From the NCBI RefSeq assembly GCF_037975245.1, contig NC_092562.1:23243554-23307553 (forward strand): a DNA stretch of 64,000 bases. Direction: 5' to 3'. The DNA comes from Apostichopus japonicus. Its lineage: Eukaryota > Echinodermata > Holothuroidea > Aspidochirotida > Stichopodidae. Both the position numbers and the translations under genes were made by a program. This document shows positions 2,319 to 51,060 of the stretch, piece by piece (the stretch's first letter is position 1; every line of letters starts with the position of its first letter). The notes under the pieces were generated by a model. The model worked only from the letters and a program-made list of their open reading frames with translations, had not been told where the DNA came from and made no database searches.

Positions 2319-2379
<61 letters not shown>
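2319..2379. repeat. (TA)n microsatellite at left array edge
   Basis: About 30 TA repeats with a single TG interruption. They abut the first minus-oriented 373-bp unit at the position where that unit internally carries a short TA run, so the tract looks like an expansion of the unit's own sequence. Confidence 0.95.
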
Positions 2380-4438
2380 GAAAATCGTAATGAGTTGGAA
2401 AATCAAGAACAGTGAAAAAACTTTCAGCCTCCACCGGGATTCGAACCACGGGCCTCCCGCTCTGTACGCGGACACCCTAACCACTAGGCTATGGACGCTG
2501 ATTGTATGTCCAGAGGTTCGAAACCGGTAAGGAAGATCGTAATTCCACTGTAGGCGTTTGTCACCTATATCGAACAATACTAGTTCTGTTTTTGGTGACA
2601 TATTTTGCCCTACTCTAGAGATCAAACATGATGCTATCCAACTCGAAAATCATTTGTGATTCCTAAAGCCGGATCTCGAAAGAGATACTTTGAACAGACT
2701 TTATGTTAATGCAATGGAGGTAAACGACAAAGGCAAATGAATATATATAAATGAAAATCGTAATGAGTTGGAAAATCAAGAACAGTGAAAAAACTTTCAG
2801 CCTCCACCGGGATTCGAACCACGGGCCTCCCGCTCTGTACGCGGACACCCTAACCACTAGGCTATGGACGCTGATTGTATGTCCAGAGGTTCGAAACCGG
2901 TAAGGAAGATCGTAATTCCACTGTAGGCGTTTGTCACCTATATCGAACAATACTAGTTCTGTTTTTGGTGACATATTTTGCCCTACTCTAGAGATCAAAC
3001 ATGATGCTATCCAACTCGAAAATCATTTGTGATTCCTAAAGCCGGATCTCGAAAGAGATACTTTGAACAGACTTTATGTTAATGCAATGGAGGTAAACGA
3101 CAAAGGCAAATGAATATATATAAATGAAAATCGTAATGAGTTGGAAAATCAAGAACAGTGAAAAAACTTTCAGCCTCCACCGGGATTCGAACCACGGGCC
3201 TCCCGCTCTGTACGCGGACACCCTAACCACTAGGCTATGGACGCTGATTGTATGTCCAGAGGTTCGAAACCGGTAAGGAAGATCGTAATTCCACTGTAGG
3301 CGTTTGTCACCTATATCGAACAATACTAGTTCTGTTTTTGGTGACATATTTTGCCCTACTCTAGAGATCAAACATGATGCTATCCAACTCGAAAATCATT
3401 TGTGATTCCTAAAGCCGGATCTCGAAAGAGATACTTTGAACAGACTTTATGTTAATGCAATGGAGGTAAACGACAAAGGCAAATGAATATATATAAATGA
3501 AAATCGTAATGAGTTGGAAAATCAAGAACAGTGAAAAAACTTTCAGCCTCCACCGGGATTCGAACCACGGGCCTCCCGCTCTGTACGCGGACACCCTAAC
3601 CACTAGGCTATGGACGCTGATTGTATGTCCAGAGGTTCGAAACCGGTAAGGAAGATCGTAATTCCACTGTAGGCGTTTGTCACCTATATCGAACAATACT
3701 AGTTCTGTTTTTGGTGACATATTTTGCCCTACTCTAGAGATCAAACATGATGCTATCCAACTCGAAAATCATTTGTGATTCCTAAAGCCGGATCTCGAAA
3801 GAGATACTTTGAACAGACTTTATGTTAATGCAATGGAGGTAAACGACAAAGGCAAATGAATATATATAAATGAAAATCGTAATGAGTTGGAAAATCAAGA
3901 ACAGTGAAAAAACTTTCAGCCTCCACCGGGATTCGAACCACGGGCCTCCCGCTCTGTACGCGGACACCCTAACCACTAGGCTATGGACGCTGATTGTATG
4001 TCCAGAGGTTCGAAACCGGTAAGGAAGATCGTAATTCCACTGTAGGCGTTTGTCACCTATATCGAACAATACTAGTTCTGTTTTTGGTGACATATTTTGC
4101 CCTACTCTAGAGATCAAACATGATGCTATCCAACTCGAAAATCATTTGTGATTCCTAAAGCCGGATCTCGAAAGAGATACTTTGAACAGACTTTATGTTA
4201 ATGCAATGGAGGTAAACGACAAAGGCAAATGAATATATATAAATGAAAATCGTAATGAGTTGGAAAATCAAGAACAGTGAAAAAACTTTCAGCCTCCACC
4301 GGGATTCGAACCACGGGCCTCCCGCTCTGTACGCGGACACCCTAACCACTAGGCTATGGACGCTGATTGTATGTCCAGAGGTTCGAAACCGGTAAGGAAG
4401 ATCGTAATTCCACTGTAGGCGTTTGTCACCTATATCGA
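2380..4438 (-). repeat. 373-bp satellite array, minus-oriented block
   Basis: About 5.5 tandem copies of a 373-bp unit, apparently identical by eye, all reading on the minus strand. The unit holds a tRNA-like sequence, a T6 run, a short TA run, and a 7-bp inverted pair TGTCACC/GGTGACA. The block ends abruptly at TCGA (4435-4438), where orientation flips. The 111-codon open frame running through each unit is an accident of period and composition: it crosses the tRNA-like sequence and a TA microsatellite and shows no protein features. Confidence 0.97.
2426..2498 (-). tRNA. tRNA-like sequence, first of 6 minus-strand copies
   Basis: This is the first minus-strand copy; the others start every 373 bp at 2799, 3172, 3545, 3918 and 4291, each 73 nt long. 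The cloverleaf, anticodon-loop and terminator features are those of the plus-strand copy at 4583. The homopolymer run acting as T6 terminator lies just 3' of the copy on the minus strand. A diverged tRNA-derived SINE head is the main alternative to a real tRNA gene. Confidence 0.5.
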
Positions 4439-4511
4439 GTTGGATAGCATCATGTTTGATCTCTAGAGTAGGGCAAAATATGTCACCAAAAACAGAACTA
4501 GTATTGTTCGA
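4435..4511. other. Inversion junction of the satellite array
   Basis: The minus block stops at TCGA (4435-4438). The plus block resumes 69 bp before its own matching TCGA (4508-4511). Left of 4438 and right of 4508 the sequences are reverse complements for about 2.06 kb, so this is a very long inverted repeat with a 69-bp spacer. The break point falls where the unit has TCGA in two places, consistent with joining at 4-bp microhomology. Confidence 0.9.
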
Positions 4512-4522
4512 TATAGGTGACA
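4481..4522. repeat. Inverted repeat inside each 373-bp unit
   Basis: TGTCACC and GGTGACA form a 7-bp stem around an inner AACA/TGTT pair and the palindrome ACTAGT. This is the first plus-strand instance; it recurs in every unit upstream of the tRNA-like sequence. Role unknown. Confidence 0.6.
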
Positions 4523-4582
4523 AACGCCTACAGTGGAATTACGATCTTCCTTACCGGTTTCGAACCTCTGGACATACAATCA

Positions 4583-4655
4583 GCGTCCATAGCCTAGTGG
4601 TTAGGGTGTCCGCGTACAGAGCGGGAGGCCCGTGGTTCGAATCCCGGTGGAGGCT
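4583..4655 (+). tRNA. tRNA-like sequence, first of 32 plus-strand copies
   Basis: Copies start at 4583 + 373k for k = 0 to 31, the last at 16146-16218. A cloverleaf can be drawn. The acceptor arms GCGTCCA and TGGAGGC pair in 6 of 7 positions, with one G-G clash. The D arm starts GCC. The anticodon stem TCCGC/GCGGG is complete, and the loop GTACAGA has U33 and anticodon ACA. The T loop is TTCGAAT, and its stem closes only if one T is bulged (CCG-T-GG against CCCGG). An A-box-like TAGCCTAGTGG and the B box GGTTCGAATCC are intact. A T6 run follows at 4661-4666, a good Pol III terminator. The ACA anticodon, purine at position 32, bulged T stem and acceptor mismatch argue against a normal translating tRNA. 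Pol III transcription is plausible. Confidence 0.55.
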
Positions 4656-4660
4656 GAAAG

Positions 4661-4666
4661 TTTTTT
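4661..4666 (+). terminator. T6 Pol III terminator downstream of tRNA-like copy
   Basis: Six T residues begin 6 nt after the tRNA-like 3' end. The run recurs in each copy I inspected, and also in both diverged relics near 49.9 and 50.3 kb, where surrounding bases have changed. Confidence 0.5.
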
Positions 4667-6447
4667 CACTGTTCTTGATTTTCCAACTCATTACGATTTT
4701 CATTTATATATATTCATTTGCCTTTGTCGTTTACCTCCATTGCATTAACATAAAGTCTGTTCAAAGTATCTCTTTCGAGATCCGGCTTTAGGAATCACAA
4801 ATGATTTTCGAGTTGGATAGCATCATGTTTGATCTCTAGAGTAGGGCAAAATATGTCACCAAAAACAGAACTAGTATTGTTCGATATAGGTGACAAACGC
4901 CTACAGTGGAATTACGATCTTCCTTACCGGTTTCGAACCTCTGGACATACAATCAGCGTCCATAGCCTAGTGGTTAGGGTGTCCGCGTACAGAGCGGGAG
5001 GCCCGTGGTTCGAATCCCGGTGGAGGCTGAAAGTTTTTTCACTGTTCTTGATTTTCCAACTCATTACGATTTTCATTTATATATATTCATTTGCCTTTGT
5101 CGTTTACCTCCATTGCATTAACATAAAGTCTGTTCAAAGTATCTCTTTCGAGATCCGGCTTTAGGAATCACAAATGATTTTCGAGTTGGATAGCATCATG
5201 TTTGATCTCTAGAGTAGGGCAAAATATGTCACCAAAAACAGAACTAGTATTGTTCGATATAGGTGACAAACGCCTACAGTGGAATTACGATCTTCCTTAC
5301 CGGTTTCGAACCTCTGGACATACAATCAGCGTCCATAGCCTAGTGGTTAGGGTGTCCGCGTACAGAGCGGGAGGCCCGTGGTTCGAATCCCGGTGGAGGC
5401 TGAAAGTTTTTTCACTGTTCTTGATTTTCCAACTCATTACGATTTTCATTTATATATATTCATTTGCCTTTGTCGTTTACCTCCATTGCATTAACATAAA
5501 GTCTGTTCAAAGTATCTCTTTCGAGATCCGGCTTTAGGAATCACAAATGATTTTCGAGTTGGATAGCATCATGTTTGATCTCTAGAGTAGGGCAAAATAT
5601 GTCACCAAAAACAGAACTAGTATTGTTCGATATAGGTGACAAACGCCTACAGTGGAATTACGATCTTCCTTACCGGTTTCGAACCTCTGGACATACAATC
5701 AGCGTCCATAGCCTAGTGGTTAGGGTGTCCGCGTACAGAGCGGGAGGCCCGTGGTTCGAATCCCGGTGGAGGCTGAAAGTTTTTTCACTGTTCTTGATTT
5801 TCCAACTCATTACGATTTTCATTTATATATATTCATTTGCCTTTGTCGTTTACCTCCATTGCATTAACATAAAGTCTGTTCAAAGTATCTCTTTCGAGAT
5901 CCGGCTTTAGGAATCACAAATGATTTTCGAGTTGGATAGCATCATGTTTGATCTCTAGAGTAGGGCAAAATATGTCACCAAAAACAGAACTAGTATTGTT
6001 CGATATAGGTGACAAACGCCTACAGTGGAATTACGATCTTCCTTACCGGTTTCGAACCTCTGGACATACAATCAGCGTCCATAGCCTAGTGGTTAGGGTG
6101 TCCGCGTACAGAGCGGGAGGCCCGTGGTTCGAATCCCGGTGGAGGCTGAAAGTTTTTTCACTGTTCTTGATTTTCCAACTCATTACGATTTTCATTTATA
6201 TATATTCATTTGCCTTTGTCGTTTACCTCCATTGCATTAACATAAAGTCTGTTCAAAGTATCTCTTTCGAGATCCGGCTTTAGGAATCACAAATGATTTT
6301 CGAGTTGGATAGCATCATGTTTGATCTCTAGAGTAGGGCAAAATATGTCACCAAAAACAGAACTAGTATTGTTCGATATAGGTGACAAACGCCTACAGTG
6401 GAATTACGATCTTCCTTACCGGTTTCGAACCTCTGGACATACAATCA

Positions 6448-6520
6448 GCGTCCATAGCCTAGTGGTTAGGGTGTCCGTGTACAGAGCGGGAGGCCCGTGG
6501 TTCGAATCCCGGTGGAGGCT
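6448..6520 (+). tRNA. tRNA-like copy with anticodon-stem variant
   Basis: Same sequence as the other copies except C to T at 6478 (GTCCGC to GTCCGT). This turns the last anticodon-stem C-G into a wobble-type T-G, so the fold is weakened but kept. It appears only once in the array. Confidence 0.5.
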
Positions 6521-9500
6521 GAAAGTTTTTTCACTGTTCTTGATTTTCCAACTCATTACGATTTTCATTTATATATATTCATTTGCCTTTGTCGTTTACC
6601 TCCATTGCATTAACATAAAGTCTGTTCAAAGTATCTCTTTCGAGATCCGGCTTTAGGAATCACAAATGATTTTCGAGTTGGATAGCATCATGTTTGATCT
6701 CTAGAGTAGGGCAAAATATGTCACCAAAAACAGAACTAGTATTGTTCGATATAGGTGACAAACGCCTACAGTGGAATTACGATCTTCCTTACCGGTTTCG
6801 AACCTCTGGACATACAATCAGCGTCCATAGCCTAGTGGTTAGGGTGTCCGCGTACAGAGCGGGAGGCCCGTGGTTCGAATCCCGGTGGAGGCTGAAAGTT
6901 TTTTCACTGTTCTTGATTTTCCAACTCATTACGATTTTCATTTATATATATTCATTTGCCTTTGTCGTTTACCTCCATTGCATTAACATAAAGTCTGTTC
7001 AAAGTATCTCTTTCGAGATCCGGCTTTAGGAATCACAAATGATTTTCGAGTTGGATAGCATCATGTTTGATCTCTAGAGTAGGGCAAAATATGTCACCAA
7101 AAACAGAACTAGTATTGTTCGATATAGGTGACAAACGCCTACAGTGGAATTACGATCTTCCTTACCGGTTTCGAACCTCTGGACATACAATCAGCGTCCA
7201 TAGCCTAGTGGTTAGGGTGTCCGCGTACAGAGCGGGAGGCCCGTGGTTCGAATCCCGGTGGAGGCTGAAAGTTTTTTCACTGTTCTTGATTTTCCAACTC
7301 ATTACGATTTTCATTTATATATATTCATTTGCCTTTGTCGTTTACCTCCATTGCATTAACATAAAGTCTGTTCAAAGTATCTCTTTCGAGATCCGGCTTT
7401 AGGAATCACAAATGATTTTCGAGTTGGATAGCATCATGTTTGATCTCTAGAGTAGGGCAAAATATGTCACCAAAAACAGAACTAGTATTGTTCGATATAG
7501 GTGACAAACGCCTACAGTGGAATTACGATCTTCCTTACCGGTTTCGAACCTCTGGACATACAATCAGCGTCCATAGCCTAGTGGTTAGGGTGTCCGCGTA
7601 CAGAGCGGGAGGCCCGTGGTTCGAATCCCGGTGGAGGCTGAAAGTTTTTTCACTGTTCTTGATTTTCCAACTCATTACGATTTTCATTTATATATATTCA
7701 TTTGCCTTTGTCGTTTACCTCCATTGCATTAACATAAAGTCTGTTCAAAGTATCTCTTTCGAGATCCGGCTTTAGGAATCACAAATGATTTTCGAGTTGG
7801 ATAGCATCATGTTTGATCTCTAGAGTAGGGCAAAATATGTCACCAAAAACAGAACTAGTATTGTTCGATATAGGTGACAAACGCCTACAGTGGAATTACG
7901 ATCTTCCTTACCGGTTTCGAACCTCTGGACATACAATCAGCGTCCATAGCCTAGTGGTTAGGGTGTCCGCGTACAGAGCGGGAGGCCCGTGGTTCGAATC
8001 CCGGTGGAGGCTGAAAGTTTTTTCACTGTTCTTGATTTTCCAACTCATTACGATTTTCATTTATATATATTCATTTGCCTTTGTCGTTTACCTCCATTGC
8101 ATTAACATAAAGTCTGTTCAAAGTATCTCTTTCGAGATCCGGCTTTAGGAATCACAAATGATTTTCGAGTTGGATAGCATCATGTTTGATCTCTAGAGTA
8201 GGGCAAAATATGTCACCAAAAACAGAACTAGTATTGTTCGATATAGGTGACAAACGCCTACAGTGGAATTACGATCTTCCTTACCGGTTTCGAACCTCTG
8301 GACATACAATCAGCGTCCATAGCCTAGTGGTTAGGGTGTCCGCGTACAGAGCGGGAGGCCCGTGGTTCGAATCCCGGTGGAGGCTGAAAGTTTTTTCACT
8401 GTTCTTGATTTTCCAACTCATTACGATTTTCATTTATATATATTCATTTGCCTTTGTCGTTTACCTCCATTGCATTAACATAAAGTCTGTTCAAAGTATC
8501 TCTTTCGAGATCCGGCTTTAGGAATCACAAATGATTTTCGAGTTGGATAGCATCATGTTTGATCTCTAGAGTAGGGCAAAATATGTCACCAAAAACAGAA
8601 CTAGTATTGTTCGATATAGGTGACAAACGCCTACAGTGGAATTACGATCTTCCTTACCGGTTTCGAACCTCTGGACATACAATCAGCGTCCATAGCCTAG
8701 TGGTTAGGGTGTCCGCGTACAGAGCGGGAGGCCCGTGGTTCGAATCCCGGTGGAGGCTGAAAGTTTTTTCACTGTTCTTGATTTTCCAACTCATTACGAT
8801 TTTCATTTATATATATTCATTTGCCTTTGTCGTTTACCTCCATTGCATTAACATAAAGTCTGTTCAAAGTATCTCTTTCGAGATCCGGCTTTAGGAATCA
8901 CAAATGATTTTCGAGTTGGATAGCATCATGTTTGATCTCTAGAGTAGGGCAAAATATGTCACCAAAAACAGAACTAGTATTGTTCGATATAGGTGACAAA
9001 CGCCTACAGTGGAATTACGATCTTCCTTACCGGTTTCGAACCTCTGGACATACAATCAGCGTCCATAGCCTAGTGGTTAGGGTGTCCGCGTACAGAGCGG
9101 GAGGCCCGTGGTTCGAATCCCGGTGGAGGCTGAAAGTTTTTTCACTGTTCTTGATTTTCCAACTCATTACGATTTTCATTTATATATATTCATTTGCCTT
9201 TGTCGTTTACCTCCATTGCATTAACATAAAGTCTGTTCAAAGTATCTCTTTCGAGATCCGGCTTTAGGAATCACAAATGATTTTCGAGTTGGATAGCATC
9301 ATGTTTGATCTCTAGAGTAGGGCAAAATATGTCACCAAAAACAGAACTAGTATTGTTCGATATAGGTGACAAACGCCTACAGTGGAATTACGATCTTCCT
9401 TACCGGTTTCGAACCTCTGGACATACAATCAGCGTCCATAGCCTAGTGGTTAGGGTGTCCGCGTACAGAGCGGGAGGCCCGTGGTTCGAATCCCGGTGGA

Positions 9501-12500
9501 GGCTGAAAGTTTTTTCACTGTTCTTGATTTTCCAACTCATTACGATTTTCATTTATATATATTCATTTGCCTTTGTCGTTTACCTCCATTGCATCAACAT
9601 AAAGTCTGTTCAAAGTATCTCTTTCGAGATCCGGCTTTAGGAATCACAAATGATTTTCGAGTTGGATAGCATCATGTTTGATCTCTAGAGTAGGGCAAAA
9701 TATGTCACCAAAAACAGAACTAGTATTGTTCGATATAGGTGACAAACGCCTACAGTGGAATTACGATCTTCCTTACCGGTTTCGAACCTCTGGACATACA
9801 ATCAGCGTCCATAGCCTAGTGGTTAGGGTGTCCGCGTACAGAGCGGGAGGCCCGTGGTTCGAATCCCGGTGGAGGCTGAAAGTTTTTTCACTGTTCTTGA
9901 TTTTCCAACTCATTACGATTTTCATTTATATATATTCATTTGCCTTTGTCGTTTACCTCCATTGCATTAACATAAAGTCTGTTCAAAGTATCTCTTTCGA
10001 GATCCGGCTTTAGGAATCACAAATGATTTTCGAGTTGGATAGCATCATGTTTGATCTCTAGAGTAGGGCAAAATATGTCACCAAAAACAGAACTAGTATT
10101 GTTCGATATAGGTGACAAACGCCTACAGTGGAATTACGATCTTCCTTACCGGTTTCGAACCTCTGGACATACAATCAGCGTCCATAGCCTAGTGGTTAGG
10201 GTGTCCGCGTACAGAGCGGGAGGCCCGTGGTTCGAATCCCGGTGGAGGCTGAAAGTTTTTTCACTGTTCTTGATTTTCCAACTCATTACGATTTTCATTT
10301 ATATATATTCATTTGCCTTTGTCGTTTACCTCCATTGCATTAACATAAAGTCTGTTCAAAGTATCTCTTTCGAGATCCGGCTTTAGGAATCACAAATGAT
10401 TTTCGAGTTGGATAGCATCATGTTTGATCTCTAGAGTAGGGCAAAATATGTCACCAAAAACAGAACTAGTATTGTTCGATATAGGTGACAAACGCCTACA
10501 GTGGAATTACGATCTTCCTTACCGGTTTCGAACCTCTGGACATACAATCAGCGTCCATAGCCTAGTGGTTAGGGTGTCCGCGTACAGAGCGGGAGGCCCG
10601 TGGTTCGAATCCCGGTGGAGGCTGAAAGTTTTTTCACTGTTCTTGATTTTCCAACTCATTACGATTTTCATTTATATATATTCATTTGCCTTTGTCGTTT
10701 ACCTCCATTGCATTAACATAAAGTCTGTTCGAAGTATCTCTTTCGAGATCCGGCTTTAGGAATCACAAATGATTTTCGAGTTGGATAGCATCATGTTTGA
10801 TCTCTAGAGTAGGGCAAAATATGTCACCAAAAACAGAACTAGTATTGTTCGATATAGGTGACAAACGCCTACAGTGGAATTACGATCTTCCTTACCGGTT
10901 TCGAACCTCTGGACATACAATCAGCGTCCATAGCCTAGTGGTTAGGGTGTCCGCGTACAGAGCGGGAGGCCCGTGGTTCGAATCCCGGTGGAGGCTGAAA
11001 GTTTTTTCACTGTTCTTGATTTTCCAACTCATTACGATTTTCATTTATATATATTCATTTGCCTTTGTCGTTTACCTCCATTGCATTAACATAAAGTCTG
11101 TTCAAAGTATCTCTTTCGAGATCCGGCTTTAGGAATCACAAATGATTTTCGAGTTGGATAGCATCATGTTTGATCTCTAGAGTAGGGCAAAATATGTCAC
11201 CAAAAACAGAACTAGTATTGTTCGATATAGGTGACAAACGCCTACAGTGGAATTACGATCTTCCTTACCGGTTTCGAACCTCTGGACATACAATCAGCGT
11301 CCATAGCCTAGTGGTTAGGGTGTCCGCGTACAGAGCGGGAGGCCCGTGGTTCGAATCCCGGTGGAGGCTGAAAGTTTTTTCACTGTTCTTGATTTTCCAA
11401 CTCATTACGATTTTCATTTATATATATTCATTTGCCTTTGTCGTTTACCTCCATTGCATTAACATAAAGTCTGTTCAAAGTATCTCTTTCGAGATCCGGC
11501 TTTAGGAATCACAAATGATTTTCGAGTTGGATAGCATCATGTTTGATCTCTAGAGTAGGGCAAAATATGTCACCAAAAACAGAACTAGTATTGTTCGATA
11601 TAGGTGACAAACGCCTACAGTGGAATTACGATCTTCCTTACCGGTTTCGAACCTCTGGACATACAATCAGCGTCCATAGCCTAGTGGTTAGGGTGTCCGC
11701 GTACAGAGCGGGAGGCCCGTGGTTCGAATCCCGGTGGAGGCTGAAAGTTTTTTCACTGTTCTTGATTTTCCAACTCATTACGATTTTCATTTATATATAT
11801 TCATTTGCCTTTGTCGTTTACCTCCATTGCATTAACATAAAGTCTGTTCAAAGTATCTCTTTCGAGATCCGGCTTTAGGAATCACAAATGATTTTCGAGT
11901 TGGATAGCATCATGTTTGATCTCTAGAGTAGGGCAAAATATGTCACCAAAAACAGAACTAGTATTGTTCGATATAGGTGACAAACGCCTACAGTGGAATT
12001 ACGATCTTCCTTACCGGTTTCGAACCTCTGGACATACAATCAGCGTCCATAGCCTAGTGGTTAGGGTGTCCGCGTACAGAGCGGGAGGCCCGTGGTTCGA
12101 ATCCCGGTGGAGGCTGAAAGTTTTTTCACTGTTCTTGATTTTCCAACTCATTACGATTTTCATTTATATATATTCATTTGCCTTTGTCGTTTACCTCCAT
12201 TGCATTAACATAAAGTCTGTTCAAAGTATCTCTTTCGAGATCCGGCTTTAGGAATCACAAATGATTTTCGAGTTGGATAGCATCATGTTTGATCTCTAGA
12301 GTAGGGCAAAATATGTCACCAAAAACAGAACTAGTATTGTTCGATATAGGTGACAAACGCCTACAGTGGAATTACGATCTTCCTTACCGGTTTCGAACCT
12401 CTGGACATACAATCAGCGTCCATAGCCTAGTGGTTAGGGTGTCCGCGTACAGAGCGGGAGGCCCGTGGTTCGAATCCCGGTGGAGGCTGAAAGTTTTTTC

Positions 12501-12788
12501 ACTGTTCTTGATTTTCCAACTCATTACGATTTTCATTTATATATATTCATTTGCCTTTGTCGTTTACCTCCATTGCATTAACATAAAGTCTGTTCAAAGT
12601 ATCTCTTTCGAGATCCGGCTTTAGGAATCACAAATGATTTTCGAGTTGGATAGCATCATGTTTGATCTCTAGAGTAGGGCAAAATATGTCACCAAAAACA
12701 GAACTAGTATTGTTCGATATAGGTGACAAACGCCTACAGTTGAATTACGATCTTCCTTACCGGTTTCGAACCTCTGGACATACAATCA

Positions 12789-12861
12789 GCGTCCATAGCC
12801 TAGTGGTTAGGGTGTCCGCGTACAGAGCGGGAGGCCCGTGGTTCGAATCCAGGTGGAGGCT
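12789..12861 (+). tRNA. tRNA-like copy with B-box-proximal variant (HOR marker)
   Basis: Carries C to A at 12851, just after the B box, which breaks one T-stem pair. The same unit has G to T at 12741 upstream. Both changes recur together in the unit 8 periods downstream (15725 and 15835; tRNA-like copy 15773-15845). Confidence 0.5.
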
Positions 12862-15800
12862 GAAAGTTTTTTCACTGTTCTTGATTTTCCAACTCATTAC
12901 GATTTTCATTTATATATATTCATTTGCCTTTGTCGTTTACCTCCATTGCATTAACATAAAGTCTGTTCAAAGTATCTCTTTCGAGATCCGGCTTTAGGAA
13001 TCACAAATGATTTTCGAGTTGGATAGCATCATGTTTGATCTCTAGAGTAGGGCAAAATATGTCACCAAAAACAGAACTAGTATTGTTCGATATAGGTGAC
13101 AAACGCCTACAGTGGAATTACGATCTTCCTTACCGGTTTCGAACCTCTGGACATACAATCAGCGTCCATAGCCTAGTGGTTAGGGTGTCCGCGTACAGAG
13201 CGGGAGGCCCGTGGTTCGAATCCCGGTGGAGGCTGAAAGTTTTTTCACTGTTCTTGATTTTCCAACTCATTACGATTTTCATTTATATATATTCATTTGC
13301 CTTTGTCGTTTACCTCCATTGCATTAACATAAAGTCTGTTCAAAGTATCTCTTTCGAGATCCGGCTTTAGGAATCACAAATGATTTTCGAGTTGGATAGC
13401 ATCATGTTTGATCTCTAGAGTAGGGCAAAATATGTCACCAAAAACAGAACTAGTATTGTTCGATATAGGTGACAAACGCCTACAGTGGAATTACGATCTT
13501 CCTTACCGGTTTCGAACCTCTGGACATACAATCAGCGTCCATAGCCTAGTGGTTAGGGTGTCCGCGTACAGAGCGGGAGGCCCGTGGTTCGAATCCCGGT
13601 GGAGGCTGAAAGTTTTTTCACTGTTCTTGATTTTCCAACTCATTACGATTTTCATTTATATATATTCATTTGCCTTTGTCGTTTACCTCCATTGCATTAA
13701 CATAAAGTCTGTTCGAAGTATCTCTTTCGAGATCCGGCTTTAGGAATCACAAATGATTTTCGAGTTGGATAGCATCATGTTTGATCTCTAGAGTAGGGCA
13801 AAATATGTCACCAAAAACAGAACTAGTATTGTTCGATATAGGTGACAAACGCCTACAGTGGAATTACGATCTTCCTTACCGGTTTCGAACCTCTGGACAT
13901 ACAATCAGCGTCCATAGCCTAGTGGTTAGGGTGTCCGCGTACAGAGCGGGAGGCCCGTGGTTCGAATCCCGGTGGAGGCTGAAAGTTTTTTCACTGTTCT
14001 TGATTTTCCAACTCATTACGATTTTCATTTATATATATTCATTTGCCTTTGTCGTTTACCTCCATTGCATTAACATAAAGTCTGTTCAAAGTATCTCTTT
14101 CGAGATCCGGCTTTAGGAATCACAAATGATTTTCGAGTTGGATAGCATCATGTTTGATCTCTAGAGTAGGGCAAAATATGTCACCAAAAACAGAACTAGT
14201 ATTGTTCGATATAGGTGACAAACGCCTACAGTGGAATTACGATCTTCCTTACCGGTTTCGAACCTCTGGACATACAATCAGCGTCCATAGCCTAGTGGTT
14301 AGGGTGTCCGCGTACAGAGCGGGAGGCCCGTGGTTCGAATCCCGGTGGAGGCTGAAAGTTTTTTCACTGTTCTTGATTTTCCAACTCATTACGATTTTCA
14401 TTTATATATATTCATTTGCCTTTGTCGTTTACCTCCATTGCATTAACATAAAGTCTGTTCAAAGTATCTCTTTCGAGATCCGGCTTTAGGAATCACAAAT
14501 GATTTTCGAGTTGGATAGCATCATGTTTGATCTCTAGAGTAGGGCAAAATATGTCACCAAAAACAGAACTAGTATTGTTCGATATAGGTGACAAACGCCT
14601 ACAGTGGAATTACGATCTTCCTTACCGGTTTCGAACCTCTGGACATACAATCAGCGTCCATAGCCTAGTGGTTAGGGTGTCCGCGTACAGAGCGGGAGGC
14701 CCGTGGTTCGAATCCCGGTGGAGGCTGAAAGTTTTTTCACTGTTCTTGATTTTCCAACTCATTACGATTTTCATTTATATATATTCATTTGCCTTTGTCG
14801 TTTACCTCCATTGCATTAACATAAAGTCTGTTCAAAGTATCTCTTTCGAGATCCGGCTTTAGGAATCACAAATGATTTTCGAGTTGGATAGCATCATGTT
14901 TGATCTCTAGAGTAGGGCAAAATATGTCACCAAAAACAGAACTAGTATTGTTCGATATAGGTGACAAACGCCTACAGTGGAATTACGATCTTCCTTACCG
15001 GTTTCGAACCTCTGGACATACAATCAGCGTCCATAGCCTAGTGGTTAGGGTGTCCGCGTACAGAGCGGGAGGCCCGTGGTTCGAATCCCGGTGGAGGCTG
15101 AAAGTTTTTTCACTGTTCTTGATTTTCCAACTCATTACGATTTTCATTTATATATATTCATTTGCCTTTGTCGTTTACCTCCATTGCATTAACATAAAGT
15201 CTGTTCAAAGTATCTCTTTCGAGATCCGGCTTTAGGAATCACAAATGATTTTCGAGTTGGATAGCATCATGTTTGATCTCTAGAGTAGGGCAAAATATGT
15301 CACCAAAAACAGAACTAGTATTGTTCGATATAGGTGACAAACGCCTACAGTGGAATTACGATCTTCCTTACCGGTTTCGAACCTCTGGACATACAATCAG
15401 CGTCCATAGCCTAGTGGTTAGGGTGTCCGCGTACAGAGCGGGAGGCCCGTGGTTCGAATCCCGGTGGAGGCTGAAAGTTTTTTCACTGTTCTTGATTTTC
15501 CAACTCATTACGATTTTCATTTATATATATTCATTTGCCTTTGTCGTTTACCTCCATTGCATTAACATAAAGTCTGTTCAAAGTATCTCTTTCGAGATCC
15601 GGCTTTAGGAATCACAAATGATTTTCGAGTTGGATAGCATCATGTTTGATCTCTAGAGTAGGGCAAAATATGTCACCAAAAACAGAACTAGTATTGTTCG
15701 ATATAGGTGACAAACGCCTACAGTTGAATTACGATCTTCCTTACCGGTTTCGAACCTCTGGACATACAATCAGCGTCCATAGCCTAGTGGTTAGGGTGTC

Positions 15801-16265
15801 CGCGTACAGAGCGGGAGGCCCGTGGTTCGAATCCAGGTGGAGGCTGAAAGTTTTTTCACTGTTCTTGATTTTCCAACTCATTACGATTTTCATTTATATA
15901 TATTCATTTGCCTTTGTCGTTTACCTCCATTGCATTAACATAAAGTCTGTTCAAAGTATCTCTTTCGAGATCCGGCTTTAGGAATCACAAATGATTTTCG
16001 AGTTGGATAGCATCATGTTTGATCTCTAGAGTAGGGCAAAATATGTCACCAAAAACAGAACTAGTATTGTTCGATATAGGTGACAAACGCCTACAGTGGA
16101 ATTACGATCTTCCTTACCGGTTTCGAACCTCTGGACATACAATCAGCGTCCATAGCCTAGTGGTTAGGGTGTCCGCGTACAGAGCGGGAGGCCCGTGGTT
16201 CGAATCCCGGTGGAGGCTGAAAGTTTTTTCACTGTTCTTGATTTTCCAACTCATTACGATTTTCA

Positions 16266-22139
<5,874 letters not shown>

Positions 22140-25100
22140 ATGAACGCAACATGCTTGAAGGTAGCGAGCATAAAGAGCGGACATGAAGAGCGGACAATAA
22201 GAGCAGACAATAAGGAGAAAAGCGAAGAGCGCCATCTAAATTCTAGCGGACGATAATCAACGATGAAGGTGCAGTGGTACTCAATAATTGTTTGTACGTA
22301 AAATTTAAGACAATTCATCCCACTAATGAAATGTTTATACGAATAGCTAAGAAGTGCGATACACATCACGAGAAAGAGAAAAGTCCCTTCTATCACTCGA
22401 GTAATGTTTGATATCGGTGAAAAATTTGAATTTGTGATTGCGGTAAATTGCACTACATCATGTACAAACTGCCGTTACGTACTAACGAAATGTTTAATTT
22501 AATTATCTTTAGTTATAGAAATAGTTAGGTAATGCGACACACGTCACGGAATAGAGCAAGGTGTCCTCTATCACTGTATTGATGGTTGATATCGGTGACA
22601 TAACTTCTATCTTTGCCAAAATTTCGATTGAAAAAGATAAAAATACTAATTGCTATTAAGTTAAGTACTAACGAAATGTTTAAAGTGAATTATCTTTAGT
22701 TATAGAAATAGTTAGATAGTGCGACACACATCATGAAGTAGAGAGATGTCTCTCCTATAACCCTGATGACATTTGGTATCGGTGACATAACTTCTATCTT
22801 CGCCAAAATTTCGATTGAAAAAAAATATGTTTTATTTATGATTGCGTTAAATTCCGCTACATCGTGTACAAACTGAAGTAACGTACTAACGAATTGTTTA
22901 AGATTAATTCTCTTTAGTTATAGAAATAGTTAGGTAGTGCGACACAAATCACGAAATAGAGCAAAGTATCTTGTATCACTCTTTTAATGTTTGCTAACGG
23001 TGACATAACTTCTATCTACGCCAACATTTCGATTGAAAAAATTAATATAATTTATAATTATACTTACTTCCAATAAAGCGAGTGTAATTATCGCTACAGA
23101 TCAGTTACTAATGAAATTTTTATGTTTAATTATCTTTAGGCCTACTTATAGAACTTTCCAATGAAATATACCCTTTGTCTCTTAGAAGGTTCTTGGGGGT
23201 GCAACAATACTTGGAATATTTACTTTTCATTGCTAAGGCATTCAGAGGATGGCTATGACTAACCACATTCGTACACACATGAGATGCAACAGGTTGCCAT
23301 CTGTTATCAAGCCTGAGGATTTCATGGAATTAAGACAAGGGGGCAAGTGCGAATGTGATGTGGGTGAGTGGTGAAAGAACTTTGGAACAGCAAGTGAGTA
23401 GTTACTAAGACAATGAAAGAAAAAAAGCACTGATTTAAAGTGATATACAATTTCGATATAACTTCATTTTACGTTACATACCGTATGGAATTTTGCTTAA
23501 AAATTGAACTGAAATAAAATTTTAAAGCAAGAAAAGTAAAACGGAACTTATAATGAATACGAAGCGGGAAATGAAAATATGTTTATAATTATTTATAAAG
23601 GTTTTAGTTTTAGAGATTGTTTGATGTTTAAATTTTTAGTCGGTAACATTGTCTCATATAGGCCTACTGAGAGCGTTTATTTTTAAACCTGCCAGTTTTT
23701 GACGTGGTTGATCACCTCTCTTTAATCCTGAACGTTTTTATGTCTCAATGCGGTAACGTTCCTTGGCCCATGGGACACATTTCCAGTTTTGCACGCCAAA
23801 TACATCGCTGAGGACAAGCGGTGTGACAAATGGGGTCAAGAAGTTCAACACCGAAGAAGAAGACAAAGCTATATGCTCAGATATGAAGATTTTGTATCAG
23901 TCACTACCTGAATTAACTTCAAGAGGCTTTGAAGAAACCAGCTAGATATTGCTCTTTTTTCGTGGAAATGAACACAATCATAAACAGTTTTACTTTCTTT
24001 CCAAATTGTGGCGCAGATAGAAGTTGTGTCACCGATATCAAATATTATTATTATTATTATTAGAGTGATTAAAAAGACATTGCTTTATTTTGTAATGTGC
24101 ATCGCATTTCTTAACAATTTCTTTAACCACCGATAACCACCGATAATTAATTACAAAAGAATCATTACTGATTGAGTTGAAACTGTACTTTGTACACGCT
24201 GCCATTGTTATGGACTTTATCGCAATCATAAATAGAACTATTATTTTTTCAATTGAAATTTTTAGCGAAGTTAGAAGTTATGTCACCGAATAAAAACATT
24301 AATATGGTATAAGAAGAGACAGTGCTCTATTTCGTGATGTGTATCGTAGTATCTAACTTTTTCTATAACTAAAGATAATTAATTTTAAACATTTCGCTAC
24401 TGACTGAGTTCTAATGGCAGTTTGTACACGCTGTAATGGAATTTATCGTAATCATAAATATAACTTATTATTTTTATCAATCGAACATTTTGGCGAAGAT
24501 AGAAGTTATGTCACCGACATCAAACATTATTAGGGTAATAGAAGGGACATTGCTCTATTTCTTGAAGTGTGTCGCACTATACCTAACTATTTCTATAACC
24601 AAAGATAACTAATTTTAAGCATTTCGTGAGTAACTGAGTTGTAACTGCAGTTGGTACACACTGTACTCGAAATCAACGCAATCATAAATAGAATTATTTC
24701 TTTCAATCGAACTGTATGCGAAGACAGAAGTTATGTCACTATTATCAAACATCAATACAGTAATAGAGGACACCTTGCTCTATTCCGTGATGTGTGTAGC
24801 ATTAACTAACTGAATCAACAACTAAAGATAATTAACTTTAAACATTTCGTTAGTACGTAACGGCAGTTTGTACATGATGTTTTGGAATTTAACGCAATCA
24901 TAAATTTAATCTTTTTTTTCACCGATATCAAAACATTACTCGAATGATAGAAGGGACTTTTCTCATTTCTCGTGATGTGTATCTCACTACTAAGCTATTT
25001 ACTTTAGAAAGATTATTAATGATAAATATTCCATTAGTGGTATGAATTGTACCTCAAATTTGATTTACAAACAATTATTGAGTACCACCGCACCTTCATC

Positions 25101-25227
25101 GTTGCTTATTGTCCGCTCTAGAATTTAGATGGCGCTCTTCGCTTTTCTCCTTATTGTCTGCTCTTATTGTCCGCACCTAAAAGTCCGCTGTTAATGTCCG
25201 CTACTTTCAAGCAGGTATGGACGCAAC
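22140..25227. mobile_element. Fold-back DNA element with subrepeated inverted arms
   Basis: The left arm (about 22151-23130) and right arm (about 24000-25216) are inverted relative to each other. Outer ends share TGCTTGAA plus several GCGGACA-type motifs and a well conserved block of about 100 bp around GAAGAGCGCCATCTAAATTC. Inward, each arm is a series of degenerate ~190-225-bp subrepeats marked by TTAGTTATAGAAATAGTTA and ATCGGTGACATAACTTCTAT, about four copies on the left and five on the right. The ~870-bp centre has no recognised gene. The 11-bp repeats ATGAACGCAAC (22140-22150) and ATGGACGCAAC (25217-25227) flank it and look like a target-site duplication with one mismatch. That length is in the Mutator/fold-back range. 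No transposase is visible, so it is probably non-autonomous. Confidence 0.8.
23131..23999. other. Central spacer of the fold-back element
   Basis: Lies between the inverted arms and does not match them. It contains short frames (23763-23945 plus, 60 codons; 23242-23430 minus) that I cannot assign. It could be the remnant of a transposase or of captured host sequence; no catalytic motif is visible. Confidence 0.4.
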
Positions 25228-26700: not shown

Positions 26701-27619
26701 AGAGCATAATGAAACTTGTGAAATTGTTAGTTGGCACAGTCACAATCTGAGTGTTGTGTACAGTATGCTTTGAAGTGAGTTATAAGCTCAGCTGGGCTAT
26801 CCAGGTTAGGGAAGATCTTCACAAGTGCTGTCTTACAAATTTTACGACCATGATTTGCAAGGACTTTCTTGCAGATACAACCGGCAACATATGTCATCAC
26901 ATTTTCTTGCACATCATCAATAATCTTTACATCCAAATGCTCTCTATTACACTTGTTAAGTACAGTATTAGTGGTGGAAATGGGGAATTGCAAAGCTAGA
27001 CATGTATCACCGTCTGTTTCACAGTTTGTGTTACTACCAAGTGGTATCATCAATTTGTTGTATATGACTTGCTTTATGGCAGATATGAATTCATTAGGTG
27101 TTGGGTTATCTCTATGCCCTCCAAACGCTTTGATTACAGAAAGCAAGTTATCAATACAGTTCTGGTTAAGCCGATTAGTCAGCAGATACTTGAAACCGTA
27201 AATTTGTTTGATATCATCATACAACTGAAGTACTACAGAAATTGTGAGAACCAATCCATTAACACGAGCAATTCTAGAAATTGGCATTGTAACAATTGTC
27301 TCCAATTGTTGATCCACTTCTTTGTATCATTCCAGGATTGTCATGTACAAATCCATCCTTAACTGCTCGTCAGTGAACCTTTACATCATTCATCATTTGT
27401 GGTTAAAAGCTATCAAAAAGCTTATCGATTTTGACAATAAATTTAGCTGTGTAAGCTGCATCAGAGGTTAATTTTCCAAAGATGTGTACGTCAGAATGAC
27501 ATATGCAACTGTATGACTTAAAACCTGAGCTGATAAAGGAACCCTCAGTTGCACTAATAAGTGGGAGCTCAATATGCTGTGAAGTTAGTTGGGTGCCATT
27601 CTACGAGGTAACTTTGAGC

Positions 27620-27875
27620 CATATTTGAAGAAATCAGCGATATCTTGCCACTTCACCTGATGCTCATCCATGACAAAACAACGTTTTTTCAAGTTGTTTC
27701 TAGTATTCTTCAGTATTAGTAGGTGTGCGCATTATAAGTCTTATTTGAAGTCATATTTGAAGAAATCAGCAATATCTTGCCACTTCACCTGATGCTCATC
27801 CATGACAAAACAACGTTTTTTTGTTCAAGTTGTTTCTAGTATTCTTCAGTAGTAGTAGGTGTGCGCATTATAAGT

Positions 27876-27880
<5 letters not shown>
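27620..27880. repeat. 132-bp tandem duplication inside transposase relic
   Basis: 27620-27751 and 27752-27880 are near-identical head-to-tail copies carrying the RNNLKK to DFFKY coding block. They differ by a 3-bp insertion in the T run and a few substitutions. Low divergence suggests that the duplication is much younger than the transposase. Confidence 0.92.

Positions 27881-27934
<54 letters not shown>
27879..27934. repeat. (ATT)n microsatellite splitting the transposase
   Basis: About 18 pure ATT units; on the coding strand this is in-frame AAT, giving a poly-Asn run right after KIYCMFD. It sits where the family normally continues with the PHLxK block, and it begins at the edge of the second copy of the 132-bp duplication. 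Confidence 0.95.
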
Positions 27935-28857
27935 CAAACATACAGTATATTTTCTGATGTTGGTTATGATTTTCCAGGATCAAGTAGGGTTCTTCATCTG
28001 TCACACCAAACAGAGAGTTCATGTTCGTGTTATTGGGACCTTGGTCACATACAACAACCTTATCTGTAAACCCAACATCTTTGAGTTTTTCTAGCGATCC
28101 ATGAGAAACCATTTCTGTTTTTCCACTGCAGTTGTCCCATTTGCCAAAAAAAGAGACCCATACATTGCTTCCATTTACTTGCAAGACCTCGCACTATAAA
28201 TACATGAGCTTGATTTGCTAGATTATTGGTCCTTCCAAGCTGAACTAAAATCGTCCATTCCTTGTATCTTATGTTTGGTTATATCATAATACAAGCCAGA
28301 TTTTAGGCTCGTTTCATCCAACGTACACATAATTTATCTCTAAGTGACATGTAATTGACCCTTTTATGTAATGATTGGAAGGTGGCTATTTTAAATTCAG
28401 GATGAATTTCGAAATTCTGTAACCATCATTGCAATGATCTCAAGCTTGGCAATACAAACGTTCTCCTACAAAATGTGTATGCTCGAGGGCTGTGGTAATA
28501 TAGAGCAAGTGCAAACACCCTGTCTCTCAGTGTATCGTATCCTCTTATAATTAAACTTTGAATCTCAGCTGACCAACTAAAAAAAACGTATGTTTGTGGG
28601 GACAGATATTTTCTCACCGACTTTAAAACAATATTCCCACTTACTTTATTACCAGCCTGTAATCGTTTAAGTTTAAATCTGTGACATTTCACTCGTAACT
28701 TATATGCCGTTATATTTTTTTCTTTTGAACTGACTGGTGCAATTTTTACCTGTTTCCCAGCATGCTTTCCACTGGCTTGTGTGCCTATGGACAGTCCTGC
28801 ATTTACTTGTGGTACTAACGACTCTTGCCGTAGCTGACAAAGCGTAAGTATGATCAA

Positions 28858-29506
28858 GGGCTACTTGGATGCTGTAAGAAATGCCTGTAATAAAATGAAG
28901 AAATGAAAATGGTTGATTTCAATGCATTAATTCATCTCAGAGTATAGTTAACAGTAGTGATTTAAAACTGATTAAGCTCTTCATTCTCTAGAACTTTTCT
29001 TTTTCAAGCATCCTACTCCCCCTTGAATCATCATACTCTTGGGAGTGCAACGCCAGTACGGGAAAACCTCTAATTTATATAAGGCCATTTGCCTGTTTAC
29101 TTTATACACCAATGCTTGATTATGTACGGGTGCCACATGACAGGAACAATGAACGTGAAGACACGTGAAGACAAGCACAAGGAATTTATAAGAGTAGATT
29201 TATGTCCAGTTATTAAAGAAGCTATTGTTCATCATTGGTTAGTTAGTTACCACGATAAGGTTCGGTTTGTGTTTCTTTTGAGTTGTTGTGGCATTGGAGT
29301 AGTTTGATCTACGTTGTCTCTTTCCTTGTGCTTTTGGGGCTAAAAAGAAGATTCCATCCTTGGACTATGTCTATCTTAGGCAATTAACACTAGCTAGGCC
29401 CTGTAGGTCACTCTTGTTTCTAGTCGTATGTCCTTGGATATAGGTAGGTCTAGATTTTCTAACTTTCGCTTCAATATTACTAAGGTTAGCAAGAATCTAG
29501 GATAAC
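28858..29506. other. Spacer, possible 5' flank of the transposase relic
   Basis: No THAP domain (C2CH pattern) can be read on the minus strand here, and no other gene is evident. Short frames on both strands (28981-29178 minus, 29089-29307 plus) lack recognisable features. Confidence 0.45.
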
Positions 29507-45918: not shown

Positions 45919-46463
45919 CACACCACGCAAAGTGGCTACGAGCCTGTTAGTGCAGTTTGTTTTATTATATATTATCTGATCTTTGTCAAAGTTGTTAGAT
46001 TTTTAAACCCGGTAAAACATGATGAATTTAGGCTTGACAATGGAAAAGTCTACGACATACGTAGATGATCAGATATAGTGTTCGTATATTAGTCCTAATG
46101 TAATTGTGCATCTTTGGTATCTATGATTAGAAGGAACAAAGACGGTATGTAGTATAGTGTTCGTGATCTACGAATTTAATATACAAGCATATATCTCACA
46201 CCACGCAAAGTGGCTACGCACCTGAGTAATGTAGACCTTTTCCAATATTTTATCTGATCTTTGTCGACATTTAGACTTTCTGAACCCGGTGCGCATGATG
46301 AATTTAAGCTTGACAAAGGAAAATTATAAGAAAGGCATAGAAGGTCATTCAATGTTCGTATTAGTCCTAATGTTATTGTGCATTATTAGTATTGATGATT
46401 AGAAGGAAAAGTGTAGACAAAGACGGTACTAAGTAGAGTGTTCGTGATCTGCGAATTGAGTAT
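45919..46463. repeat. Diverged 278-bp tandem duplication
   Basis: 45919-46196 and 46197-46463 align along their length. They share CACACCACGCAAAGTGGCTA, ATCTGATCTTTGTC, CATGATGAATTTA, TATTAGTCCTAATGT, ATGATTAGAAGGA and GTGTTCGTGATCT, with many small indels. No coding potential. Confidence 0.85.
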
Positions 46464-46534
46464 CCAAACAACAAGTTGATGTTACCACGGGTCCCATGGG
46501 TAAGGCTGCTACTGGAGTAATTGTCTTTAGGGCT

Positions 46535-46593
46535 GCAGAAAGGAGACCGAGAACATATGAGACGAACAGCTCAATTGGCGAATATAGCAAGCA
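46535..46593 (+). repeat. 59-bp direct repeat, copy 1
   Basis: Shares GCAGAAAGGAGACCGAGAAC and AGACGAACAGCTCAATTGGC with copy 2, 665 bp downstream. It could be the duplicated edge of an old insertion or a short dispersed repeat. Confidence 0.8.
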
Positions 46594-49548: not shown

Positions 49549-49643
49549 TATATATGTATATATGTATATGTATATGTATATATATTTATATATATATATA
49601 TATATATATCTTTATATATATATATATATATATCTTTATATAT

Positions 49644-49710
<67 letters not shown>
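49549..49710. repeat. TA-rich microsatellite, left edge of the relic
   Basis: Imperfect TA/TATG/TTTATA runs leading directly into a diverged copy of the 373-bp unit. Confidence 0.95.
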
Positions 49711-49810
49711 GTCACCAAAACAGAACTAGTTTTGTTCGATACAGGTGACAAACGCCTACAGTGGAATTACGACCTTCCTTACCGGTTTCGAACCTCTGGA
49801 CATACAATCA

Positions 49811-49882
49811 GCGTCCACAGCCTAGTGGTTCGGGTGTCCGCATATAAAGCGGTAGGCCCGGGTTCGAATTCCGGTGGAGACT
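49811..49882 (+). tRNA. Diverged tRNA-like copy with intact T stem
   Basis: Here the T stem reads CCGGG/TCCGG without the bulged T seen in the array. The anticodon loop is ATATAAA (anticodon ATA), and the acceptor arm has two mismatches. This suggests that the array version gained an extra T after the two diverged. Probably a pseudogene. Confidence 0.4.
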
Positions 49883-50181
49883 GGAAGTTTTTTCACTGTT
49901 CTGGATTTTCCAACTCATTACGTTTTCAATTATATATATTCATTAGCCTTTGTCGTTTACCTCCATTTCATTAACAAAAGTCTGTTCAAAGTATCCCTTT
50001 CGAGATCCGGCTTTAGGAATTACAAATGACTTCGAGTTAGTTAGAATCATATTTGATCTCTAGAATAAGGCAAATGCGTCACCAAAACAGAACTAGTATT
50101 GTTCGATACAGGTGACAGACGCCTACAGTGGAATTACGGCCTTCCTTACCGGTTTCGAACCTCAGGACATACTGTACATTA

Positions 50182-50255
50182 GCGTCCATAGCCTAGTGGG
50201 TTAGGGTGTCCGCGTACAGAGCGGAAGGCCCGTGGTTCGAATCCCGGTGGAGTCT
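50182..50255 (+). tRNA. Diverged tRNA-like copy, array-type T stem
   Basis: Keeps the array's GTACAGA loop and bulged T stem but has an extra G in the D loop (GTGGGTTA) and GCGGA in the anticodon stem. Followed by T6. Probably a pseudogene. Confidence 0.4.
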
Positions 50256-50302
50256 GAAAGTTTTTTCGTTGTTCTTGATTTTCCAACTCATTACGACTTT
50301 CA

Positions 50303-50630
50303 TTTATATATATATATATATACAAATATATATATAGATATCTATCTATATCGTTACATATATATAAATATATATCTATATATATATATATATAGATATC
50401 TATTTATATATATATATATGTATATATATTTAGATATATATCTATATATATCTACATCTATCTATATATATATGTGTATATATTAAGATATATATCTATA
50501 TATATCTATATACACATATATATATACATATATATATACATATATATATACATATATAAATACATATATATCTATCTATATATATCTATATACATATATA
50601 TATATATATACATATATATATACATATATA
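50303..50630. repeat. Complex TA-rich microsatellite
   Basis: Mixed TATA, TATC, TACATA and GATATC runs over about 330 bp, joining the 373-bp relic to the hammerhead-bearing dimer. Confidence 0.95.
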
Positions 50631-50704
50631 GTAAATCAATAAAGAAATAACACAACAGAAAAACTCCACTTCACGACCGGTTTCAGGCGAAGGTAGGAAT
50701 CAGG

Positions 50705-50778
50705 CGAAGGTAGGAATCGAACCCCGGATCTTTGTGTCACGAACCGAAGTCCGTACCACTCGACCACAGTGATTCTAC
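50705..50778 (-). repeat. Second tRNA-like sequence (SINE head type)
   Basis: On the minus strand A-box-like TGGTCGAGTGG (50766-50756) and perfect B box GGTTCGATTCC (50723-50713) are spaced as in a tRNA. Acceptor and anticodon stems do not fold well. It is unrelated to the 373-bp family's tRNA-like sequence and lies between the two hammerhead copies. Confidence 0.5.
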
Positions 50779-51007
50779 TGGTGTGTTAAAACGTATAAAT
50801 TGGCCTAGAATAACTGTCATTAAGGGCGTATGCCCTTAGTATTATGATTGTACAGAGTGCACCCCTGGGGCTTTGAATCTGACAATTCTACACAGAATAA
50901 CCACTCTTTATAGGCAAGCCAAGCCGTAAATAACAATTGAATGTGCAGCAAGTGGTATGACTGTCAGATATATAGTAAATCAATAAAAAATAACACTCCA
51001 GAAAAAT

Positions 51008-51060
51008 GCCACTTCACGACAGGTTTCGTCCTTTTGGGACTCATCAGGCGTTTAACACAC
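51008..51060 (-). ncRNA. Hammerhead ribozyme (type I, short stem III)
   Basis: On the minus strand: CTGATGA (51047-51041), stem-loop II GTCC-CAAAA-GGAC (51040-51028), GAAA (51027-51024), a very short stem III, then the cleavage triplet GTC (51020-51018). Stem I begins G-C, U-G, G-C between 51017-51015 and 51048-51050. All invariant core bases are present. With such a short stem III, dimer-mediated cleavage would be expected, as in Penelope-type and retrozyme hammerheads. Confidence 0.8.

Follow-up and report, generated by a model that had tools for sequence, protein, structure and literature searches.

Satellites of tRNA type are a kind of repeat already described in amphibians and reptiles. 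The closest known system to the array reported here is PolIII/TAN (Hirt) of the newt Cynops pyrrhogaster, a tandem repeat of about 360 nt with a tRNA-like sequence that can be transcribed in vitro and for which, in the account cited, no similar SINE was identified (PMC10702118). The same account treats Xenopus OAX/satellite I and Rana/polIII, whose tandem units include a segment derived from or similar to a tRNA; the OAX unit is called too long for a proper satellite, and PolIII/TAN, OAX and Rana/polIII are judged inconclusive as links between SINEs and satellites (PMC10702118). In squamate reptiles, the satellite units derive from parts of known SINE families and have mean similarities of 63 to 97% (PMC10702118). 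Penelope-like elements are described as forming tandems or partial tandems and inverted head-to-head copies whose junctions carry palindromes, and as targeting simple AT-rich sequence (PMC3846280, PMC11167929). Metazoan retrozymes are short, low-GC tandem repeats of 150-450 bp with a type I hammerhead in each unit, found as dimers to large multimers (PMC7229834). Tandem units with tRNA-type modules are also known from Entamoeba (PMC2652664) and human 1q23.3 (PMC4041453), where the modules are genuine tRNA genes and the human units measure 7.3 kb.

We analyzed a 64-kb stretch of Apostichopus japonicus DNA, referred to here as the window. The original prediction was of 38 copies of a tRNA-like sequence, one in each 373-bp unit, and both programs we used recovered all of them: ARAGORN made 38 tRNA calls in the array, with anticodon ACA, plus a 39th at 50181-50256, and Rfam model RF00005 matched 38/38 copies. 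The 373-bp period runs over 2368-4438 and 4435-16276 with 99% matches, and the unit has 41.6% GC. According to ARAGORN, six copies lie on the minus strand and 32 on the plus strand; the inversion of these six left-hand copies did not figure in the prediction. The array has two head-to-head arms. The left arm (2378-4438, minus strand) carries the six copies, reads outwards to the left and matches the unit to position 121, after which it continues as TA; the right arm (4435-16272, plus strand) carries the other 32 and matches the unit to position 127, again followed by TA. They meet at a TCGA common to both arms (4435-4438), where the left arm begins at unit position 299 and the right arm at unit position 226 with a 4-bp overlap. 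The arm starts are 73 bp apart within the unit, so that the junction lacks mirror symmetry.

Like PolIII/TAN, the array repeats in tandem a unit that has its own tRNA-like Pol III promoter (38/38), as far as the two can be compared by description rather than by sequence; the head-to-head arms and TA borders go unmentioned for the newt repeat in the description cited (PMC10702118). It shares its general plan with OAX and Rana/polIII as well, although, again by description, its 373-bp unit differs from the roughly 250-nt unit of the latter. With the squamate satellites it has in common a tRNA-headed retroelement sequence amplified in tandem, long arrays being the more homogeneous ones (PMC10702118). 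Unlike them, it has no known parent, keeps the module and T run whole, and is identical in 28/36 full units. It resembles Penelope-like elements in its tandem and inverted head-to-head copies and junction palindrome, and its TA-rich borders may correspond to their AT-rich targets, but the 373-bp unit holds no reverse transcriptase, no endonuclease and no detectable hammerhead, and the tRNA-like module does not appear in the descriptions of these elements cited here (PMC3846280, PMC11167929).

In the first right-arm copy, our reference for unit positions 1-73, the tRNA-like module occupies 4583-4655 (plus strand) and encloses consensus A and B boxes within a tRNA-like cloverleaf. A T6 run at 4661-4666 (plus strand), a possible Pol III terminator, corresponds to unit positions 79-84; five bases separate it from residue 73, so that it starts at the sixth base. 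The predicted A box, B box and T6 proved intact throughout: TAGCCTAGTGG at unit position 8, GGTTCGAATCC at unit position 52 and exactly T6 at 79-84 were each found in 38/38 copies. A loose A box-B box-T4 pattern had 39 hits in the window, 38 in the array copies and one at 50189; with the array taken out, 100 mononucleotide shuffles of the window gave none. The satellite is therefore putatively Pol III-competent, judging from the internal promoter and terminator signals in all 38 copies. A low covariance score had been named as a possible refutation; instead, RF00005 gave 47.2 bits in 35 copies and 44.9-45.0 bits in three, well above its cut-off of 29, with E-values of 5.8e-07 to 2.5e-06 when the window was the search space. 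Folding energy does not single out the module, since 10/200 shuffles of an array copy fold as well. As for tRNA function, 20/21 pairs are standard and the score reaches 47.2 bits, yet the anticodon is ACA and the Rfam alignment places a G at position 32 and a bulged U in the T stem; the one non-standard pair is a G-G in the acceptor. These oddities had all been predicted, and a product that differs from an ordinary tRNA is plausible from the sequence.

The array is young. It contains five substitutions, and three of these reappear eight units away, a coincidence with a probability of 0.002 if the three common variants were placed at random. The same three substitutions mark two successive eight-unit blocks, one from 10551 and one from 13535 (together 10551-16272, plus strand), so at least one growth step was a block duplication. 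Rolling-circle copying of a single template as the sole process predicts singleton variants only and was rejected, since three of the five are common to several units; an earlier rolling-circle step may have preceded the block duplication. The tRNA part, 20% of the unit, contains two of the five substitutions, and the array therefore gives no sign of selection on that part.

A second, older locus, absent from the prediction, lies at 49711-50313 (plus strand). It holds about 1.6 units, is 91.6% identical to the array unit and starts at about unit position 273. Its tRNA-like modules, at 49811-49882 and 50182-50255, score 34.2 and 42.2 bits with RF00005. They have 3 and 2 non-standard pairs of 21, versus 1/21 in the array, and no pair has changed on both sides; in the folding test, 7/200 and 72/200 shuffles do as well. 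Both units retain the T6. With gaps not counted, divergence within the locus is highest in the first tRNA part (8/72) and lowest in the second (2/73), with 2.9-8.7% in the other long segments. Selection on the tRNA part was rejected as an explanation, there being no consistent sign of it in the array, the older locus or the base pairs.

Both loci sit between TA-rich tracts. For the array these are (TA)n tracts at 2321-2378 on the left and 16274-16411 on the right; for the older copy, TA-rich tracts at 49549-49707 and 50305-50630. In the window, 8/8 TA runs of at least 16 bp and 10/12 of at least 12 bp border the two loci. The outer array ends fall a few bases apart in the TA-rich stretch of the unit, each fused to (TA)n. 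Taking integrated ends as the last matching unit position, the four outer ends are at about 273, 121, 127 and 131, and none is the tRNA head. Three of these ends, the two of the array and the right one of the older copy, enter long TA tracts at or beside an internal TATATATA of the unit (4705-4712, plus strand). The older copy starts at the 5′ stem of a hairpin TGTCACC...GGTGACA (4854-4895, plus strand), and the left arm starts in the loop of this hairpin. At 4852-4895 the hairpin has a folding z of -3.85, matched by 0/200 shuffles of the 44 nt; within the longer stretch 4838-4955 it is not unusual (z -1.21, 25/200 shuffles as good). No target-site duplication was recognizable in the TA tracts, which may be older or younger than the insertions. 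A blastn comparison (E 0.01) of the 1-kb flanks beyond the tracts showed nothing in common between the loci. The repeat therefore gives no sign of belonging to a larger repeated unit, and on the same result we rejected a bigger mobile element, such as a Helentron, as its carrier. In the TA tracts and over the inverted junction, Rfam also reported miRNA and other families, all below their cut-offs (MIR6425, for example, had an E-value of 3.1e-06 and 37.6 bits against a cut-off of 142); we took these hits to be palindromes.

We think it reasonably probable that a tRNA-headed, non-coding mobile element, which may have moved in Penelope style, was recently amplified into this satellite array. One copy of it, which may have been tandem by that time, would have entered or joined a TA tract via the internal TATATATA, and the head-to-head layout may have come from fold-back or self-priming at the short TCGA palindrome. 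Against a simple fold-back, the arms are unequal, with 6 versus 32 copies, and growth after the fold-back would be required; the right arm could have been lengthened by unequal exchange or by some other process that copies blocks. Each unit could then be read by Pol III into a tRNA-like RNA of about 80-90 nt with the T run at its end; this RNA would probably be a by-product. Penelope-type machinery is the favored, though unproven, mover because partial tandems, head-to-head copies, junction palindromes and AT-rich targets have been described for Penelope-like elements. No reverse transcriptase or GIY-YIG endonuclease of Penelope type was found with Pfam in 9 of the 19 open frames of at least 110 aa outside the array; the only match above the cut-off in these nine frames was Tnp_P_element. 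The evidence for a family consists of two loci within the 64-kb window. Exact patterns from the window had 0 matches in viral and prokaryotic contig collections, a result that the content of these collections makes weakly informative.

An ordinary SINE-derived satellite, in which a tRNA-headed SINE with a TA-rich tail was duplicated by unequal exchange and homogenized as in squamate reptiles, is unlikely. The order of tRNA head, body and TA-rich stretch fits it, and satellites from SINEs are documented, with more homogeneity in longer arrays (PMC10702118). But two features of SINEs, a transcript that spans the element and copies that start at the tRNA head, are missing: the T6 five bases past the head, present in 38/38 units, would stop Pol III after about 85 nt, before the rest of the repeat is transcribed, and 0/4 outer ends at the two loci lie at the head, the older copy starting near unit position 273. 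In addition, about 240 bp separate TATATATA from the next head, and no parent SINE is known, the genomic sequence covered being that of the window. The proposal that the array was born from a tRNA-derived SINE is thus not supported as stated. Less likely still is an array of noncoding RNA or tRNA genes expressed and kept for their product, like those of Entamoeba or human 1q23.3: the intact promoter and terminator, the score of 47.2 and the low divergence of the second older tRNA part (2/73) would suit it, but the ACA anticodon, G-G acceptor pair and bulged T stem would not, nor would the high divergence of the first older part (8/72 versus 2.9-8.7% elsewhere) or older copies with 3 and 2 non-standard pairs and no both-sided changes. 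Recent amplification alone explains the homogeneity. We give a similarly low probability to an assembly artefact, with the inversion or the eight-unit block produced by mis-joined repeat reads. Near-identical repeats are hard to assemble, and junctions and block duplications are plausible points of failure; however, the arm starts are 73 bp apart in the unit rather than mirrored, the two flanks differ, and the older copy has TA borders independently.

A metazoan retrozyme of hammerhead type, with a ribozyme since decayed or replaced, seems the most improbable of the alternatives. A 373-bp unit with 41.6% GC is within the metazoan retrozyme range (PMC7229834), dimers and long tandems suit it as well, and a hammerhead-like element lies one TA tract away from the older copy, but an Rfam search of both strands of 4200-5400 found no hammerhead at E-values up to 5. 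As a decayed core we considered an antisense GGTTCGAAACC preceded by CTGATTG, before the tRNA head, and rejected it: the motif is incomplete, with no CTGANGA and no Rfam match, and by eye it is kept in the 49.8-kb unit and lost from the 50.2-kb unit. The hammerhead-like element itself (50.6-51.1 kb) adjoins the other side of the right-hand TA-rich tract of the older copy. Kinship between it and our unit was rejected, as the best local scores, 20 and 21 on the two strands, were reached by 110/200 and 87/200 shuffles. A tRNA-like segment in that element was noticed by eye only; ARAGORN and Rfam (E up to 5) gave no call.

It is also conceivable, if very doubtful, that the unit is a non-autonomous Penelope-type element in which the tRNA-like fold replaces the hammerhead ribozyme. 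A long multimeric transcript would come from another promoter or the opposite strand, the tRNA-processing enzymes of the cell would cut it at the tRNA-like fold, and the pieces would be reverse transcribed into TA tracts, so that mobility itself would make the tandem growth and head-to-head ends. The neighboring hammerhead-like element, unrelated in sequence and laid out on the same TA-bordered plan, could be the ribozyme-bearing counterpart.

Links between mobile elements and satellites are often proposed but seldom caught early. On our preferred reading, a recent satellite from a tRNA-headed mobile element, this array is young enough for the steps to be still readable in its TA-tract borders, head-to-head junction and eight-unit duplication, and a small copy of the element, older than the array, is found within the same 64 kb. 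Should the units be transcribed, the presence of 38 Pol III modules within 14 kb would also offer a natural test of what dense Pol III binding does to chromatin.

The 38 tRNA-like copies, one per 373-bp unit and each with an A box, a B box and a T6 run, were borne out. Tandem Repeats Finder gave a period of 373 bp over 2368-4438 and 4435-16276. Of the 39 tRNAs that ARAGORN called across the window, 38 fall inside the array, with 32 read from the plus strand and 6 from the minus strand. The original prediction also named a covariance-model check, and here the Rfam tRNA model matched all 38 modules (47.2 bits in 35 and 44.9-45.0 in 3), above the gathering score of 29; further matches lie outside the array at 49811-49882 and 50182-50255. 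Counting from the first base of the module, the A box at unit position 8, the B box at 52 and the T6 run at 79 are intact in 38/38. A loose A-B-T4 pattern appeared in 0 of 100 mononucleotide shuffles of the window minus the array. Folding energy alone is unremarkable, with 10 of 200 shuffles folding as well as the array copy. By consensus, the Pol III module has all its parts and could therefore plausibly yield an RNA of some 80-90 nt. By eye, a second B-box-like word, GGTTCGAAACC, lies on the opposite strand at 4556-4566 (unit 347-357), directly ahead of the tRNA head; none of the array's unit substitutions falls inside it.

The array consists of two head-to-head arms, with six minus-strand modules on the left and 32 plus-strand modules on the right. 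They meet at 4435-4438 in a TCGA common to both. Read outwards from this junction, the first base of the left arm is unit position 299 and that of the right arm is 226. The left outer end matches the unit to position 121, beside TATATATA (unit 123-130), and the right to position 127, within that word; both then run into (TA)n.

A second, diverged copy of the element, which we call the older copy, occupies 49711-50313 with about 1.6 units at 91.6% identity. It is flanked on both sides by TA-rich tracts. Its first unambiguous base corresponds to about unit position 273, where the 5' stem of a TGTCACC...GGTGACA hairpin lies; none of 200 shuffles folds as well as the 44-nt hairpin stretch, and 25/200 do so for the surrounding 118 nt. 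Its right end matches the unit to position 131, followed by TA. Divergence among its segments is highest in the first tRNA part (8/72) and lowest in the second (2/73), with the remaining long segments 2.9-8.7% different, gaps not counted. These two tRNA-like parts are equalled in folding by 7/200 and 72/200 shuffles. Standard cloverleaf pairs number 20/21 in the array and 18/21 and 19/21 in the older copies, and comparing the two revealed no paired change on both sides of a cloverleaf pair. All 8 TA runs of at least 16 bp in the 64-kb window, and 10 of the 12 of at least 12 bp, border the array or the older locus. The four 1-kb flanks beyond these TA tracts have no sequence in common.

We compared 36 of the 38 modules, each with the full unit after it, omitting the two outermost that run into TA. 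Twenty-eight units equal the consensus exactly, and eight carry one substitution each, with five distinct substitutions in all. Three of the five recur exactly eight units on, from right-arm units 16, 21 and 22 to 24, 29 and 30 (counted from 0); the probability that three random pairs have one common offset is 0.002. Barring a misjoin in the assembly, the right end of the array was therefore lengthened when a block of eight units duplicated; either this duplication or the arm junction may be an assembly error. Two of the five substitutions fall in the tRNA part, which makes up a fifth of the unit, so the substitutions give no sign of constraint on it.

Other repeats in the window include a large inverted-repeat element at 22149-25216 (arms 22149-23047 and 25216-24239, 78.8% identity), which contains tandem repeats of 187 and 230 bp. 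P-element transposase-like pieces lie on the minus strand at 26727-28860 (Tnp_P_element, E 4.1e-08, above cut-off; TNP-like_RNaseH_C, E 6.7e-05, just under it), and between them are a 132-bp tandem duplication and an (ATT)n run. A direct repeat of about 275 bp (76% identity) is found at 45919-46470. Two copies of a 59-bp sequence, 93% identical, lie at 46535 and 47200.

A hammerhead-like element (Rfam Hammerhead_1, minus strand, ~51060-50639) adjoins the older copy on the right, with one TA-rich tract between. Its core match, 22.3 bits with E 0.052, is under the cut-off of 34. A 15-base stretch right ahead of the core has its exact complement about 250 bases past it; in 2000 mononucleotide shuffles of this stretch no such match arose, and the pair could serve as helix I. 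Part of the element is duplicated (50624-50684 and 50968-51027, 90%). By eye, the bases near 50700-50770 look tRNA-like and include a B-box word; no tRNA was called there by ARAGORN, or by Rfam at E values up to 5. The element resembles the hammerhead repeats that have been associated with retrozymes and Penelope-like elements. It has no similarity above chance to the array unit, and the two are unrelated. They do have a common plan: a tail ending in TATATAT, a partial tandem and a TA tract. This plan is a weak ground for reading the unit as a Penelope-type element in which a tRNA-like fold replaces the hammerhead ribozyme.

How might such a unit have arisen? Birth from a tRNA-derived SINE, as first suggested, was not supported as stated. 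The T6 run would end the transcript ahead of the unit's remainder, and 0 of 4 outer ends of the array and older locus lie at the tRNA head; by these two features the element is not a SINE. SINE-derived satellites are established in squamates (PMC10702118). Given the T6 stop, we infer that any RNA copied to new locations must have come from read-through or another promoter. Penelope-like elements occur as tandem or partial-tandem copies and favor simple AT-rich targets; inverted head-to-head copies often accompany these tandems, with palindromes where the copies meet (PMC3846280, PMC11167929). The anatomy seen here agrees with that description, but no coding sequence or sequence kinship proves membership. 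The alternative is an origin at the DNA level, with repeat DNA joined at breaks in TA tracts and then multiplied by unequal exchange.

In the portions of the literature covered, we found no description of a TA-bordered, head-to-head tRNA-like array, and one may still be in print. The nearest description is of the newt PolIII/TAN repeat, a tRNA-like unit of about 360 nt that can be transcribed in vitro; beside it stand Xenopus OAX and Rana/polIII, all three as described in PMC10702118. We conclude that this is a tRNA-headed, non-coding element that occurs in A. japonicus in two forms, a small copy with TA borders and a young satellite array.
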